Assembly: GCA_017859335.1 (NCBI GenBank)
Contig: JAFMNH010000016.1
Coordinates: 1-33,340 of the forward strand
Source: Rhodothermales bacterium
GTDB taxonomy: Bacteria > Bacteroidota > Rhodothermia > Rhodothermales > UBA10348
Direction: 5' to 3'
DNA length: 33,340 nucleotides
Part shown: piece by piece, positions 6,129 to 28,999 of the stretch
How the letters are laid out: the number at the start of each line of letters is the position of its first letter
Numbering within the stretch: the stretch's first letter is position 1
The notes under the pieces: model-generated
Seen by the model: the letters and a program-made list of their open reading frames with translations, nothing else
Databases searched by the model: none
Told to the model about the DNA's origin: nothing
Made by a program: the position numbers and the translations under genes

Positions 6129-6135
6129 ACGCGTG

Positions 6136-6208
6136 TGGAGCTAAGCGGAGTCGAACCGCTGACCTCTTGAATGCCATTCAAGCGCTCTACCAGCTGAGCT
6201 ATAGCCCC
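6136..6208 (-). tRNA. tRNA-Ala, anticodon GGC
   Basis: The 73-nt sequence folds as a standard cloverleaf. The acceptor stem is GGGGCTA with TAGCTCC (one G-U pair), the D arm GCTC/GAGC, the anticodon arm CTTGA-ATGGCAT-TCAAG with anticodon GGC reading GCC/GCU alanine codons, and the T arm AGCGG-TTCGACT-CCGCT. The discriminator base is A. The 3' CCA is not encoded and must be added by the CCA-adding enzyme. The gene stands alone between the DUF5916 gene and mreD, with its own terminator. Confidence 0.96.
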
Positions 6209-8549: not shown

Positions 8550-9008
8550 TCAACCGCCGTGATTGACGATTTCGTATTCCGGGAAGAAGTAGTTGGCTTC
8601 AATCCGTCCGTTTTCAACAGAGTCCGATCCGTGGGCAATGTTCTGTCCCTTGTTGTCTGCAAACAATTTGCGGATCGTACCCTCGGCAGCTTCTTCAGGA
8701 TCCGTAGCGCCGATCAGTTCACGGTAGTCGGCTACGGCGTTCTCTTTTTCCAGGACCATGGGAACGCAGGGGCCTGACGTCATGAAGTCAACCAGTTCGC
8801 CAAAGAACGGACGCTCCTTGTGAACGGCATAGAAACCTTCGGCTTCTGCGCGGGAGAGCTGGACCATTTTAAGGGCGCGGATAGTGAATCCGGCTTCCTG
8901 GATGCGGCGGGTTACTTCGCCGATGAGGTTCTTGCGGACACAGTCCGGCTTCAGGATGGCAAGCGTGCGTTCTACGGCCATGGCAGTGGGAAACTGTTTG
9001 GGTTTCAT
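8550..9008 (-). CDS. ndk: Nucleoside diphosphate kinase
   Basis: Ndk moves the gamma-phosphate from ATP to other nucleoside diphosphates through a phosphohistidine, keeping NTP and dNTP pools balanced in the cytoplasm. The sequence has [11 protein letters not shown] with the conserved lysine (K20) and the active-site NIAHGSDS (His 126), followed by the usual C-terminal region ending in [10 protein letters not shown]. The length of 152 is about nine residues over the family norm because of the N-terminal KPKQFPTA; an in-frame ATG at 8981 (AVERTLAIL) would give the standard form, and either start could be right since neither has a clear Shine-Dalgarno. The DUF1343 gene follows 10 bp downstream. 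Confidence 0.95.
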
Positions 9009-9102
9009 TGGAAAGTTTCAGTCCGTCCTAACGCCCGCAGTCTGCACAGGGATGCCTGTCGGCGGGGAAGAAGTCATGAATCGCGCAGGAGCTGCAGGTC
9101 TC

Positions 9103-9585
9103 CTACGGAGCGACCACCGGTTCGACGGCCAGCAGGATGGAATAGGCAGAGGCGCGCCGTTCCGTGTTTTCTTCCGGGTATGGATCCACCTGCAGCAGCT
9201 GGTAGCGATACCCGTTGAACTGGATGATATCGTTGACGACGTAGGGCGTGGCAACCAGACCCGGGATCTGGACCACGATCTGGGAGCGTTCTGATTGGTT
9301 GTCGATGATGGTCAGCAAGATACCTGCGCGCCCTGCCTGAACACATTGTACCGTTCGCAGACACCGGTCATCCTCCATGACGGTGGTGAATTCGATGGCC
9401 AGATCTGTTCCGTCCACGATCACCCGCTGTCCGTAGCCAAGTTCGAAGGGCGTCCCTGCTGCGACCACCCGGTCGGCTGATGTGCCGCCTGGCGGTCCGT
9501 GGTCGACGCTGAAGTCCCGACACCCTGCGGCAGCCAACATGCACAGCAGGATCGCTGCTCCCAGCAGCAAGCGGGTACCCTGCAC
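9103..9585 (-). CDS. Small lipoprotein of unknown function
   Basis: A GTG at 9585 gives a 160-residue product that opens with QGTRLLLGAAILLCMLAAAGC, a canonical lipoprotein signal with lipobox AAGC. The mature part is one short beta-rich domain: FELGYGQRVIVDG, then LAIEFTTVMEDDRC and VQCVQAG. This order (glycine-rich strand, D-x-R-C, then C-x-x-A-G) recurs in unnamed secreted proteins of many bacteria, and the two cysteines may form a disulfide. The frame stays open to 9972, and ATG 9663 is an alternative start, but it would place 26 residues in front of the signal peptide. The gene is divergent from the class V aminotransferase gene. No function can be assigned. Confidence 0.7.
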   Translation of the reverse strand: MQGTRLLLGAAILLCMLAAAGCRDFSVDHGPPGGTSADRVVAAGTPFELGYGQRVIVDGTDLAIEFTTVMEDDRCLRTVQCVQAGRAGILLTIIDNQSERSQIVVQIPGLVATPYVVNDIIQFNGYRYQLLQVDPYPEENTERRASAYSILLAVEPVVAP

Positions 9586-9884
9586 CGTATACCAGCGGAC
9601 TTTGATACAACCCCGGGCAGGTGCGAGGCTGGCGTCCTCGGCTGTCCTCTGGTGAATGGGCATACAATAACCGGACGAATGGGTCGTGTTCACACGGCAC
9701 CAAGAAACCACGCCACTGGCACCATCTGCAACCTCAAACCCCTCATCGGCTGTAAAGACGGACCCACCTGTCTCCATCATGACGTGATTCGCCATCAGGC
9801 AGGCACTTCTCCGAATCATCCCCCTGCTTGCATCCAGGTTCTGCGAGGAGGAGATTGCTGTGGTACCAGACCCCGTGTTTCCTG

Positions 9885-11000
9885 ATGCTTGATTGGCCCG
9901 CCTTCCGTGCTCTTTTCCCAGCTCTCGAGGGGCGAACGTATCTGAACACCGCAGGCGGCGGGCCCATGGCAAGGGGTACGGCGCAGGCGGCTGCCAACTA
10001 CTACGCCGAGTCGGTTTCCATGGGCGATCTGGGATGGGATGTGTGGCTGCAAAGGGCCCGGCGTGCCCGCGAGGATGTTGCGTCGTTTGTCGGAGGTCAG
10101 GCAGATCGAACGGCGTTCCTGCCCAATGCGTCGCTCGGTTTCAATATGCTGGCCAGAAGCCTGGGTCGGGAGGCCCGCATTCTGGCCCTCGATCAGGAGT
10201 TTCCTTCGTGCACGCTGCCCTTCCTTCGCGCCGGAGCGGATCTTCGCTTCATCAAGACATCTCCTGATGGCGCCATTGACGCCGACCATCTGACCTCCTC
10301 CTGGATTCCCGGAACTACCGCGTTTGTCATCAGCCATGTCCAGTATGCGAACGGTTTTCGAGCCGATCTGTGTGCCTTGGCATCCGTTTGCCACCATCAC
10401 GGCGCGCTGTTTCTGGTAGATGCCACCCAATCGATAGGCGCATTCCCGCTGGACATGGAAACGATGGGAATCGATGCGTTGGTGTTCTCGGGCTACAAAT
10501 GGGCAACAGCGGGATACGGCAATGCGGCATTTCTCACGGGAGACGGGTGGCCCCAGGCGGATCCCCCATTCGTCGGATGGAGGAGTGCACGCGATGCCTA
10601 CGCCCTTGAAAACGACCGATTGGACGTGCTATCCGGAGGCATCGGTCACGAAATGGGACATCCTCCGTTTCCAGGGCTGTTCGCGCTGGCGGAGGCGCTG
10701 CGCATACTGGATACTGTCGGGCCGGAGAGGACCGCCCAACGGATCATCACCGTGGGCGGGTACCTGCTCCGTGCGTTGGATGAGCGTGGTATTCCCGTAC
10801 GCAGTACCCGAGATGATGCCCACCGCTCGGGTATCCTTCTTCTGGATGTGGATGATGCCCCGGCTGTCTGCTCTGCATTGAAGGAGCACGAGATCTGGAC
10901 GAGTGCGCGCGATGGTGGTCTTCGCGTGTCCCTGCACGGCTACAACGACACATCAGACATGGACCGCTTCCTGCAGGGATTGGACACCACCTTGGCCTGA
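9885..11000 (+). CDS. Class V aminotransferase-fold PLP enzyme (cysteine desulfurase-like)
   Basis: The 371-residue protein has the fold-type I layout of the SufS/CsdA and isopenicillin-epimerase group. It opens with RTYLNTAGGGP, a substrate-loop motif common in this family. The cofactor aspartate is in FLVDATQSIG (Asp 179), and the Schiff-base lysine is in FSGYKWATAGYG (Lys 205). The cysteine that acts in true desulfurases sits in the C-terminal third, and I see no equivalent conserved Cys loop; only isolated cysteines occur there. It is therefore more likely a lyase, epimerase or aminotransferase than a sulfur donor. ATG 9885 is chosen because the family starts immediately before the strand leading to YLNTAGG; ATG 9828 would add 19 unrelated residues. 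No operon partner is apparent. Confidence 0.82.
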   Translation: MLDWPAFRALFPALEGRTYLNTAGGGPMARGTAQAAANYYAESVSMGDLGWDVWLQRARRAREDVASFVGGQADRTAFLPNASLGFNMLARSLGREARILALDQEFPSCTLPFLRAGADLRFIKTSPDGAIDADHLTSSWIPGTTAFVISHVQYANGFRADLCALASVCHHHGALFLVDATQSIGAFPLDMETMGIDALVFSGYKWATAGYGNAAFLTGDGWPQADPPFVGWRSARDAYALENDRLDVLSGGIGHEMGHPPFPGLFALAEALRILDTVGPERTAQRIITVGGYLLRALDERGIPVRSTRDDAHRSGILLLDVDDAPAVCSALKEHEIWTSARDGGLRVSLHGYNDTSDMDRFLQGLDTTLA

Positions 11001-26500: not shown

Positions 26501-27115
26501 GTGTTCTACGATACGCCCCTTACGCTCTTTCTGCTGTTGATTACCGTCCTGGTCAGTGGGTACACCCTGTATCAGGACCCGTCCCTGATGTCAAGGCTCT
26601 CCTTCAAACCACGTGACATCCTCGATGAGGGCCAGTGGTACCGGATGATTACAGGAGGATTTGTTCATGGAAGCCTGGGCCACTTGGCCTTCAACATGAT
26701 CACCCTCTTCTTCTTCGGGCCAGTACTCGAAGCGCGGCTGGGATCGCTTGTCTTTCTCCTCGTCTATTTCGGCTCGGAACTCTCGGCGCATGCCTTGACG
26801 CTGAAGCTTCACCGGCATACGCCCGGATACGCCGCTGTGGGTGCCTCTGGAGCGATTGCCGGGCTCGTGTTTTCGTTTTGTCTCTTTCGCCCCTTCGAAA
26901 ACATCTATCTGTTTTTCGCCATCGGTATTCCTGCCTGGCTCTTTGCCGTGGGATTCGTCCTCTTTTCCACCATGGCCATGCGAAACCGTCCATCGGGAGC
27001 GATGGGGGGTATTGCACACGAGGCTCATCTTGGAGGTGCCTTGGGCGGCCTGCTGCTGACCATTCTGCTGAAGCCCGAAGCGCTCAGCATCTTTCTTGGG
27101 CAGGTGGGCTTCTGA
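26501..27115 (+). CDS. Rhomboid-family intramembrane serine protease
   Basis: Rhomboids cut substrate membrane helices inside the bilayer. The 204-residue protein has six predicted membrane segments and the family residues: HLAFN (His 61, Asn 65) in segment 2, GASGA (catalytic Ser 116) in segment 4, and HEAHLGGALGG (catalytic His 176) in segment 6. The start is GTG 26501; the only nearby ATG (26484) is out of frame. Substrates are unknown. It is the last protein gene before the noncoding stretch that holds the candidate large RNA. Confidence 0.9.
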   Translation: MFYDTPLTLFLLLITVLVSGYTLYQDPSLMSRLSFKPRDILDEGQWYRMITGGFVHGSLGHLAFNMITLFFFGPVLEARLGSLVFLLVYFGSELSAHALTLKLHRHTPGYAAVGASGAIAGLVFSFCLFRPFENIYLFFAIGIPAWLFAVGFVLFSTMAMRNRPSGAMGGIAHEAHLGGALGGLLLTILLKPEALSIFLGQVGF

Positions 27116-27434
27116 GGCATGAGCCGTTATTGCATGGGTCATGTCCTTCGCAATACAGGTGATCTATCTCCTATTCTCCAGTTCTTCGGTCTCTGGTTTG
27201 TACAAGAACCGTTATTGCTTGCAGATCCGCGGGATTCTACCCTATCTTCCTATCACTCATGCCGCCTGGGATTGCGTCCCCCGTGGGGACACTCAGTCGC
27301 GTAGTGACTATGGGCACCAAAAAGCTCGGTTCGAAAGGGCCGGGCTTTTTGCGCATTGGATGGATTTCCCGGGTTGTGCACATCGGTGAATTAGGTATGT
27401 GAATTTCTTGTGGAAGAAAGACGGGGTCCCTTCG
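27116..27434. other. Intergenic region upstream of the structured RNA
   Basis: This 319-bp gap has no credible protein gene. It contains a direct repeat CCGTTATTGC (27124-27133 and 27209-27218), a small hairpin GTCCCC-cgtg-GGGAC near 27277 and the strong hairpin at 27319-27350. The rhomboid transcript, or a short RNA, could end at that hairpin. Confidence 0.4.
27319..27350. terminator. Bidirectional terminator-like hairpin
   Basis: AAAAAGCTCGG and CCGGGCTTTTT make an 11-bp stem with one G-U pair and a 10-nt loop. Five A and five T residues flank it, so it could work in either direction. It separates the rhomboid transcript from the structured RNA unit. Confidence 0.75.
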
Positions 27435-27463
27435 TTGACACCGTTGTGCCTCTGTCCTACCAT
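27435..27463 (+). promoter_or_regulatory. Sigma70-like promoter of the structured RNA
   Basis: TTGACA (27435-27440, perfect -35) and TACCAT (27458-27463, four of six matches to -10) are 17 bp apart, the optimal spacing. Transcription would start near 27470, directly in front of the first hairpin of the RNA. No coding start follows. Confidence 0.65.
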
Positions 27464-27469
27464 AGTGCC

Positions 27470-28230
27470 AGTGCCTGACGGCACCGTTCCTTGACGCGAC
27501 TGAGTCTCTAGGCTGCATGAGGCAGGCCAAGCCACCTGAAAAGGTGGTTTAGCAGGGCCCCTGCAATGGAAAGCGCCCAAGGTTTCGAGCAAACCGACGG
27601 CAGCGACCATAGCAGTGTCAACGACCAGGAAGGAAGAAGCACAGGACGAGGGTAAAACCTCAGTCCACGCGCAGAAACCGACCGTACGGTGGAAGACAGC
27701 CTGTCCGGTGAAGCGTGGTTTCGACCTCTGCAGCATCTGGCAGGAGGAGCCGGAAGCCAGACCGAGCTGTCAGTACGTCCCGGCGTACGTGCCAGGTCGC
27801 TTCCGGATACCCGCGGTGGCAAACGCACAACCGGCTTCGGCTGGGAAGGCGTTGTCCCGAACCCTCGGCGTCGAGCCGTGGGGGGTAGTAAAGCAACACT
27901 ACGATGAACCTTGGCGCTTCTCAGGAAGCAAAAAGGAGAAATGGCGTTGCCCGCTTTCAGCGCGAACCGGACCGCAAGGTTCGGGAATGCAAAGCGGACA
28001 CCCTGCGTGGCATGTGTCTTTGCCGTGTGCCCATACGACAAAGACCGTAGAGCGGATCGCTTGCGACCCACTGTACGTTCCGCTGCTCCGTAAAAGGGGA
28101 GCGGATACCTTGGAGACTTGAACCTCCCGCTACTGGTGCGGAGGAAACGCTACGGCGCAGATCCCACACCAGGGGAGGTTCTCGTGTCGGGAGCAGAAGG
28201 AAAGCTGTCCTCAGGGGCGGCTTTTTTTTT
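27470..28230 (+). ncRNA. Candidate large structured noncoding RNA, about 760 nt, family not recognised
   Basis: The unit has a promoter, a dense series of helices and a strong terminator, but no convincing reading frame. Helices by position: 27471-27475/27480-27484, 27529-27536/27543-27550 (8 bp), 27581-27585/27591-27595, 27644-27651/27658-27666, 27665-27670/27713-27718, 27750-27757/27799-27806 (8 bp, enclosing 27760-27763/27795-27798 and 27773-27777/27784-27788). Next: 27822-27826/27849-27853 enclosing a C-UUCG-G tetraloop hairpin at 27831-27844, 27866-27869/27875-27878, 27916-27920/27925-27929, 27951-27957/27991-27997 (7 bp, enclosing 27963-27968/27978-27983), 28016-28022/28039-28045 (7 bp), 28051-28056/28079-28084, and 28120-28127/28174-28181 (8 bp, enclosing 28133-28138/28167-28172 and a C-UACG-G loop). 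Unpaired parts are rich in A on the plus strand (GTAAAA, AAAAAGGAGAAA, GGAAAC), which favours this strand. I do not find RNase P, tmRNA, SRP, 6S or intron signatures. Confidence 0.75.
28201..28230 (+). terminator. Rho-independent terminator of the structured RNA
   Basis: AAAGCTGTCC and GGGCGGCTTT pair over 10 bp (two G-U pairs) around the tetraloop TCAG, followed by an unbroken T-tract (nine T residues up to 28230). This is the strongest terminator in the window and works only in the plus direction, where no protein gene precedes it. Confidence 0.92.
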
Positions 28231-28291: not shown

Positions 28292-28999
28292 TCAAGAACC
28301 TTCCCGAACAAGGGCGGTCAGCTGATCCCAGACGGAAAATGACACGACATCGGGATGATCGAAGGGGTCACCCGCGTACCACGCCACCTGCCAGCCTGCA
28401 CCCAGACTGCCGTGCACATCCGAGGTCAGCGAGTCGCCGACGTAGAGGATATCTTCAGGCCGTGTTTCAGCACGTGCAGCAGCTTCGGAAAACAGGCGAG
28501 GATCCGGCTTCAGCACGCCCACCTCCTCACTGATGACAATGGTGGCAGAAAGATCTGAAAGCATGGAAAACTGTCGCAGTTTCGCCTGCTGAACCTCCAC
28601 GAATCCGTTGGTCAGAATACCAACGGGTACATGATCGGCAATGGCCTGAAACGCTTCCATGGCCCCCATCACAGGCCTCCAGAAGGTCGCATAGGTCTGA
28701 AGATACCGGTGGGCCAACTGCTCGTCGGTGTCCGTGGGCAAGGTAAGACGCTCGAGCAACTGCGAAAAACGACCCACCTTGGCTTGATGCTTGGTGTAGG
28801 CGCCACTCGCATACCGCTGCCATACGACCGGATTGATGGATCGGTAGGCGGCGAGAACAGCGTCAAAGGTGTGGGTTCCAAATGGTCGATCCTCTGCTGC
28901 GTGTAGCGCTTGCAAGGCAGCATGCTCGGCGTAGGAATGATCCAGGAGTGTGTCGTCCAGGTCGAAATAAACGAAGCGGACAGGGCGGGTAAGCTTCAT
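28292..28999 (-). CDS. HAD-superfamily hydrolase (YjjG-like phosphatase)
   Basis: The 235-residue protein has the HAD motifs: I, FDLDDTLLD (nucleophile Asp 13, acid Asp 15); II, LTNGF; III, the lysine in VGVLKPDPRLF; IV, VGDSLTSDVHG. The helical cap between motifs I and II matches the HAD-IA (YjjG) subgroup that dephosphorylates nucleotides or small phosphates; the exact substrate cannot be told. ATG 28999 overlaps the end of the upstream gene by four bases (ATGA), so translation is coupled; the frame extends to 29095 without resemblance. Third gene of the unit with the SPT-like and GNAT-like genes. Its stop lies about 60 bp from the RNA terminator. Confidence 0.9.
   Translation of the reverse strand: MKLTRPVRFVYFDLDDTLLDHSYAEHAALQALHAAEDRPFGTHTFDAVLAAYRSINPVVWQRYASGAYTKHQAKVGRFSQLLERLTLPTDTDEQLAHRYLQTYATFWRPVMGAMEAFQAIADHVPVGILTNGFVEVQQAKLRQFSMLSDLSATIVISEEVGVLKPDPRLFSEAAARAETRPEDILYVGDSLTSDVHGSLGAGWQVAWYAGDPFDHPDVVSFSVWDQLTALVREGS

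Follow-up and report, generated by a model that had tools for sequence, protein, structure and literature searches.

Organization of the locus

The window, by which we mean the whole 33,340-nt stretch of Rhodothermales contig JAFMNH010000016.1 that we analyzed, carries a plus-strand region of about 760 nt with its own promoter and terminator, located between a rhomboid protease gene and a convergent HAD-like hydrolase gene. An earlier note, made from the letters alone, had proposed that this region is a stand-alone gene for a large structured RNA outside the known families. The features of the locus are as follows:

26501-27115, plus strand: rhomboid protease gene (PF01694), the syntenic upstream neighbor, outside the RNA
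27375-27416, plus strand: DnaA-box-like elements TGTGCACA, TGTGAAT, and TTGTGGAAG, upstream of the -35 box and degenerate in the window copy
27435-27463, plus strand: sigma-70-type promoter TTGACA-N17-TACCAT, with spacing and distance to the RNA core the same in most homologues
27464-28230, plus strand: large structured RNA, with a 5' end probably near 27470
28203-28230, plus strand: intrinsic terminator AGCTGTCC/GGGCGGCT plus nine T, conserved in the consensus fold
28292-28999, minus strand: HAD-like hydrolase gene (PF00702), the syntenic convergent neighbor, outside the RNA

Both signals were found as the earlier note had described them. In the promoter, TTGACA (27435-27440) and TACCAT (27458-27463) are separated by a 17-nt spacer, and the terminator hairpin (28203-28222) is followed by its nine T (28222-28230). 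At least 10 of the 12 promoter consensus bases are matched in 48 of 56 homologues, and the -10 box lies exactly 22 nt upstream of the conserved core in 40 of 56. Since the rhomboid gene upstream has a terminator of its own, at about 27320-27352, the RNA forms a separate unit; given also that the HAD gene lies on the opposite strand, the promoter and terminator serve the RNA region alone, in keeping with the claim that no plus-strand protein gene uses them. From these two signals, we infer that the region is transcribed.

Known RNA families and coding potential

We searched the window against the 4227 families of Rfam 15, counting as membership any covariance-model score that reached the curated gathering cut-off. 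At that score, the whole window gave no match except a distant tRNA. A permissive search of the RNA region returned chance-level matches only, the best of which (E = 0.48) was to an unrelated short family, and at all 13 diverged homologous loci searched, the RNA went unmatched in Rfam. These searches agree with the earlier placement of the RNA outside the known families, as does the finding that ordinary genes for RNase P RNA, tmRNA, and SRP RNA, whose signatures had seemed absent by eye, all lie on other contigs; on this ground we rejected the RNA as an unrecognized version of any of the three. We also observed an ordinary tRNA-Ala (GGC) gene at 6135-6208 on the minus strand of the window.

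6S RNA is a hairpin of about 180 nt with an open promoter-like bubble. We found no match to its model, RF00013, at the locus, and the length and architecture of our RNA differ from those of 6S RNA. Separately, RF00013 reached its cut-off in 0 of 41 Rhodothermales relatives, with one sub-threshold candidate of 38.4 bits (in G039), which indicates that 6S RNA is either diverged or missing in these genomes.

The window has open frames of 168 aa on the plus strand and 187 aa on the minus strand, and Pfam gave no match for the ORFs overlapping the RNA. Matches to these ORFs in relatives are confined to short stretches conserved as DNA, chiefly the 5' core along with part of the middle; they do not extend as proteins, and ORF lengths and frames vary between species. 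A conserved protein, which the earlier note had named as evidence that would count against an RNA gene, is thus not encoded here.

Distribution and genomic neighborhood

A plain DNA search found the region in 35 of 41 relatives. Conservation peaks in a 5' core of roughly 60 nt, where identity is 84-98% even when different families of the order are compared. A core model (R1) built on this 5' core gave a single strong match per genome in 56 of the 114 Rhodothermales species; a cultured bearer is Roseithermus sacchariphilus (CP030158.1). When we searched 245 genomes at the level of the class and 296 at that of the phylum, no convincing homologue appeared outside the order, only marginal matches. 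Those in G211 and G434 had E values of about 4e-4 to 9e-4 per genome, which over hundreds of genomes is near chance. An exact 18-mer of the core has matches in Arthrobacter, Mesorhizobium, and other unrelated genomes, where the rest of the core is missing, and 0 matches in 2.9 million viral contigs.

The RNA is missing from families f3, f4, f10, and f15 and from part of f12 and f13. A dedicated model search of 28 RNA-less genomes gave weak matches only, and the best-scoring of these proved on inspection to be chance matches or coding sequence with no RNA context. The two most familiar genera of the group, Rhodothermus and Salinibacter, seem to be without the RNA (we take G040 to be Rhodothermus marinus and G036 to be Salinibacter ruber), and its absence from them may explain why it has been overlooked.

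Many families share a gene order in which the rhomboid gene is followed by the RNA and then by the convergent HAD hydrolase gene and genes for a GNAT-type protein, a KBL-type aminotransferase, DUF5683, and parB. These neighbors are also present in species without the RNA. In two such genomes (G036 and G093), the rhomboid and HAD coding matches converge about 150-170 bp apart, while in another (G038, of family f15) other genes fill the interval. Given this shared synteny and the RNA-less intervals, we conclude that the RNA gene is chromosomal and vertically inherited, and that it has been gained or lost whole. Since about half of the order does without it, including genomes in which the rhomboid and HAD genes converge closely, the RNA is not essential to the order. 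As a side observation, in the G038 locus (L152, about 8700-10250) the stretch separating the rhomboid gene from the GNAT gene contains, judged by eye, an apparent toxin-antitoxin pair of the HipB/HipA type.

Structure and covariation

The plus strand of the RNA region folds to -350.7 kcal/mol, compared to -296.6 +/- 8.7 kcal/mol for dinucleotide shuffles (z = -6.24; 0 of 20 shuffles as good), which bears out the earlier claim of many helices over about 760 nt. The minus strand gave z = -4.27. Three routes, namely the single-sequence fold, an RNAalifold consensus, and covariation in the core, were concordant on the structure. Its elements, with pairing scored over the cells of the core alignment, are as follows:

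27471-27484, plus strand: P1 hairpin GTGCC-TGAC-GGCAC (97% of cells paired; double changes in 3 of 5 pairs)
27493-27499, plus strand: P2 5' strand GACGCGA (partner 28182-28188; 87.9% of cells paired)
27502-27508, plus strand: P3 5' strand GAGTCTC (partner 28113-28119; double changes in 4 of 7 pairs)
27511-27528, plus strand: P5 hairpin GGCU/GGCC, whose loop carries the near-invariant kissing strand AUGAG at 27517-27521 (84% of stem cells paired)
28016-28045, plus strand: internal kissing hairpin GTCTTTGCCGT-GTGCCCAT-ACGACAAAGAC (double changes in 5 of 6 stem pairs; loop constant)
28113-28119, plus strand: P3 3' strand GAGACTT (supported by fold, consensus, and core alignment)
28120-28181, plus strand: P4 hairpin GAACCTCCC...GGGAGGTTC, between the 3' strands of P3 and P2
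28182-28191, plus strand: P2 3' strand TCGTGTC with the conserved RGG

The single-sequence fold of the window copy already holds P2, P3, and P4. Given 13 full-length relatives and no supplied structure, RNAalifold recovered P1, P2, P3, P4, the internal hairpin, and the terminator, with double changes in 53 of 132 consensus pairs. In the core alignment (33 sequences across families), 87.4% of cells are paired, compared to 25-46% in slid-partner controls, and 13 pairs have double changes, compared to 4.7 +/- 1.5 in shuffles (0 of 500 as high). The covariation that the earlier note had named as support for its proposal is therefore present. Together with the Rfam negatives, the lack of a conserved protein, and the conserved promoter and terminator, this supports a stand-alone large structured RNA gene outside the known families, and we regard it as virtually certain that the locus is a real structured noncoding RNA gene.

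Pairing between the near-invariant 5' core, GUUCCUUGACGCGACUGAGUCUCUAGGCUGCAUGAGG, and the 3' end of the RNA creates a three-way junction of P2, P3, and P4. Across relatives, P2 joins GACGCGA with UCGYGUC near the 3' end and so closes the molecule. Its variation in the alignment is mostly G-C to G-U, and reading by eye we saw C-G to A-U exchanges in L111 and L043. P3 generally pairs GAGUCUC with GAGACUC, and its strands change in concert: GAAUCUC faces GAGAUUC or GAGGUUC in L033-L035, GUCUUU faces AAAGAC in L026-L028, and in L040 and L054 an extra base is matched on the opposite strand. In L026-L028, L039, L054, and L093, different complementary sequences take the place of the P4 stem, which in L026-L028 is reduced to a bare UUCG-capped stem. 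P1 is lengthened or replaced in some families. At nine loci (L039, L093, L041, L042, L062, L112, L114, L115, and L122), it seems to have been replaced by or lengthened into a larger domain, with the promoter shifted upstream.

The internal hairpin's loop sequence CCCAU (28030-28034), which is CYCAU across homologues, pairs with AUGAG (27517-27521) in the P5 loop. The register of this kissing helix is less certain than the other helices because it contains an A-C mismatch and few of its pairs vary. We prefer AUGAG:CYCAU because two sets of changes fit it: the loop is CUCAU in L036, L111, L113, and L114, which turns the central A-C mismatch into A-U, and a double change in L124 turns one G-C pair into A-U. 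An alternative register with a bulged A and GG:CC pairing has more cells paired and zero double changes, and we judged it weaker.

The remainder of the RNA is a variable periphery capped by tetraloops, and the length from P1 to the end of P2 ranges from 462 to 1062 nt across homologues. Among 51 homologues, we counted 120 stable UUCG hairpins versus 3.2 expected (37-fold) and 152 GNRA hairpins versus 30 expected (about 5-fold). Both excesses occur on the RNA strand only, with the reverse-strand equivalents at background.

DnaA-box-like sites upstream of the promoter

In nearly all loci, the DNA upstream of the -35 box carries repeated TGTGNA/TTATNCACA elements, and relatives have exact TTATNCACA boxes at the position equivalent to that of the degenerate elements in the window. 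Over the equivalent 95 bp in 56 loci, there are 24 exact and 93 one-mismatch boxes, compared to 0.1 and 4.6 expected. Exact boxes occur at 4.5 per kb, about 300-fold above the 0.014 per kb measured across 510 kb of flanking DNA, and at least three half-sites are found in 34 of 56 promoter windows, versus 1 of 5395 background windows. The elements are lacking at four loci. Three of these (L114, L115, and L122) have longer 5' domains, and their true promoter therefore probably lies further out.

Clusters of TTATNCACA-type boxes beside a promoter, kept between species, are the pattern by which a DnaA-regulated gene is recognized, and this RNA gene has it. Regulation by DnaA would be the simplest reading of the sites, although the TGTGNA boxes could bind a different protein with a similar site.

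Possible functions of the RNA

We lean toward the view that the RNA is a trans-acting scaffold, alone or in an RNP, with transcription linked to DnaA, and we hold this view with moderate confidence. In the mechanism we propose, the 5' core would fold back onto the RNA's own 3' end through the P2-P3-P4 junction, and the AUGAG:CYCAU kissing loop would lock the internal hairpin onto this core. The result would be a stable scaffold RNA that, alone or with proteins, may act away from its own gene, in a style like that of OLE RNA. DnaA, as the presumed binding protein just upstream of the -35 box, would probably control the promoter, which would tie the level of the RNA to the replication or growth state of the cell. 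A broader reading, in which an ornate RNA machine (scaffold or ribozyme) of a new class is controlled by DnaA and helps to link chromosome replication with some other process in Rhodothermales, is possible but tentative.

The RNA might instead be regulatory, sequestering a protein in the manner of 6S RNA or CsrB/RsmX or pairing with mRNAs, and we consider this unlikely. A stand-alone gene with a strong promoter and a probable cell-cycle link would suit such a role, and CcnA of Caulobacter offers a precedent as a cell-cycle noncoding RNA that acts on mRNAs (PMC8959179). A functional stand-in for 6S RNA is conceivable, with RF00013 below its cut-off in all 41 relatives; that absence says little, however, because the model misses many control genomes as well, and the architecture of our RNA is not 6S-like. 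CsrB/RsmX sponges carry repeated GGA motifs in hairpin loops. GGA motifs in our RNA are not enriched (1.14-fold relative to shuffles), and we therefore rejected a CsrA-type sponge. In addition, the invariant core is mostly paired internally and not free for targets.

We see a lower chance still that the RNA is a ribozyme, with the invariant core and kissing loop forming its active site and the variable periphery serving only for folding. The variable body is flanked on both sides by a short, almost unchanging core, and distant parts are linked by a pseudoknot-like contact; these features and the lack of a detectable protein partner would be consistent with catalysis, and RNase P and tmRNA are encoded by separate genes. 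Yet no ribozyme family in Rfam was matched, and we saw nothing to indicate a substrate or a conserved cleavage site.

The dense DnaA-box-like sites, along with a parB gene 4-5 kb away in the window, raise the possibility that the RNA is a by-product of a locus serving as chromosomal replication origin or DnaA-titration site. We sampled GC skew in 20-kb pieces in three genomes. The skew minimum lies near 0.4-0.6 Mb in G112, near 2.49 Mb in G034, and near 1.0-1.2 Mb in G030, while the RNA lies at 1.12, 2.78, and 0.19 Mb, respectively. The sites are thus kept far from the skew-inferred origins, and with the minima hundreds of kilobases off, we rejected the locus as oriC. Structure and covariation also occur in the predicted transcript, beyond the box region, and overall we consider an origin or titration site very improbable. 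Finally, we give almost no credence to a protein-coding gene or mRNA leader with incidental structure: the 168-aa and 187-aa frames are the points in its favor, but they are unconserved and unmatched in Pfam, the next gene is on the opposite strand, and a terminator lies 3' of the RNA.

We made several separate observations on dnaA itself. Two full-length dnaA-like genes are present in G000 (contigs C167 and C110), G004, G015, G036, G112, and G113, and carrying the second copy was unrelated to carrying the RNA among the few genomes we checked. Genome G050 (family f15) has 17 Bac_DnaA domain matches, of which 16 are additional to dnaA; these are mostly near-identical short ORFs scattered over contigs and are probably ATPases of a multi-copy insertion element. 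A single dnaA was found about 100-250 kb from the sampled skew minimum in G034 (about 2.49 Mb) and in G030 (about 1.0-1.2 Mb); the origin in this order may therefore lie elsewhere than at dnaA.

Returning to the scaffold reading, the DnaA-box-like cluster provides a concrete, testable handle on the biology of the RNA. Given that the gene is chromosomal, deeply conserved, vertically inherited, and present in a cultured bearer, genetic and structural work is feasible.

Comparison with known large RNAs

To our knowledge, few bacterial RNA classes are of comparable size and complexity, and each such class raises the question of what roles remain for RNA in modern cells. OLE is part of a membrane RNP with OLE-associated proteins, and GOLLD, ROOL, and OLE form homo-oligomers or nanocages. 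The earlier note had likened the window RNA to these three; the likeness stands for size and complexity only and fails for membership, as no Rfam model was matched.

A published study describes OLE, GOLLD, and ROOL as RNA-only complexes with kissing loops, among them a cryo-EM dimer of OLE, and reports that GOLLD is encoded in phages and prophages (PMC12286853). OLE resembles our RNA as a stand-alone structured chromosomal RNA, of about 600 nt, conserved in one broad bacterial group. That group, however, is Bacillota rather than Rhodothermales, the core sequence is different, the OLE model in Rfam was not matched, and no OLE-type partner genes occur among the syntenic neighbors of our RNA.

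CcnA of Caulobacter crescentus is a noncoding RNA tied to replication and cell-cycle control elements (PMC8959179). Its gene is located within the replication origin, with CtrA as the presumed activator, whereas the Rhodothermales RNA lies off the skew-inferred origin in three genomes, has DnaA-box-like sites, and belongs to a large, structured, unrelated class.

ROOL, also large and ornate, is similar in length and has conserved loop-loop contacts, but it has another host range, its Rfam model was not matched, and its core and closing helices are unrelated in sequence. GOLLD exceeds 700 nt and has kissing loops, one conserved end, and a variable remainder, a plan like that predicted here from sequence, although in the Rhodothermales RNA both ends are conserved and Rfam gave no GOLLD match. 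While GOLLD and ROOL are mostly borne by phages or prophages, the Rhodothermales RNA is a single syntenic chromosomal copy with no viral match to its core. We found no description of it in Rfam 15 or the open-licence literature, and one may exist elsewhere. Because it matched no known family and, unlike GOLLD and ROOL, is chromosomal and syntenic, we rate it, within that scope, as a class of RNA not described before.
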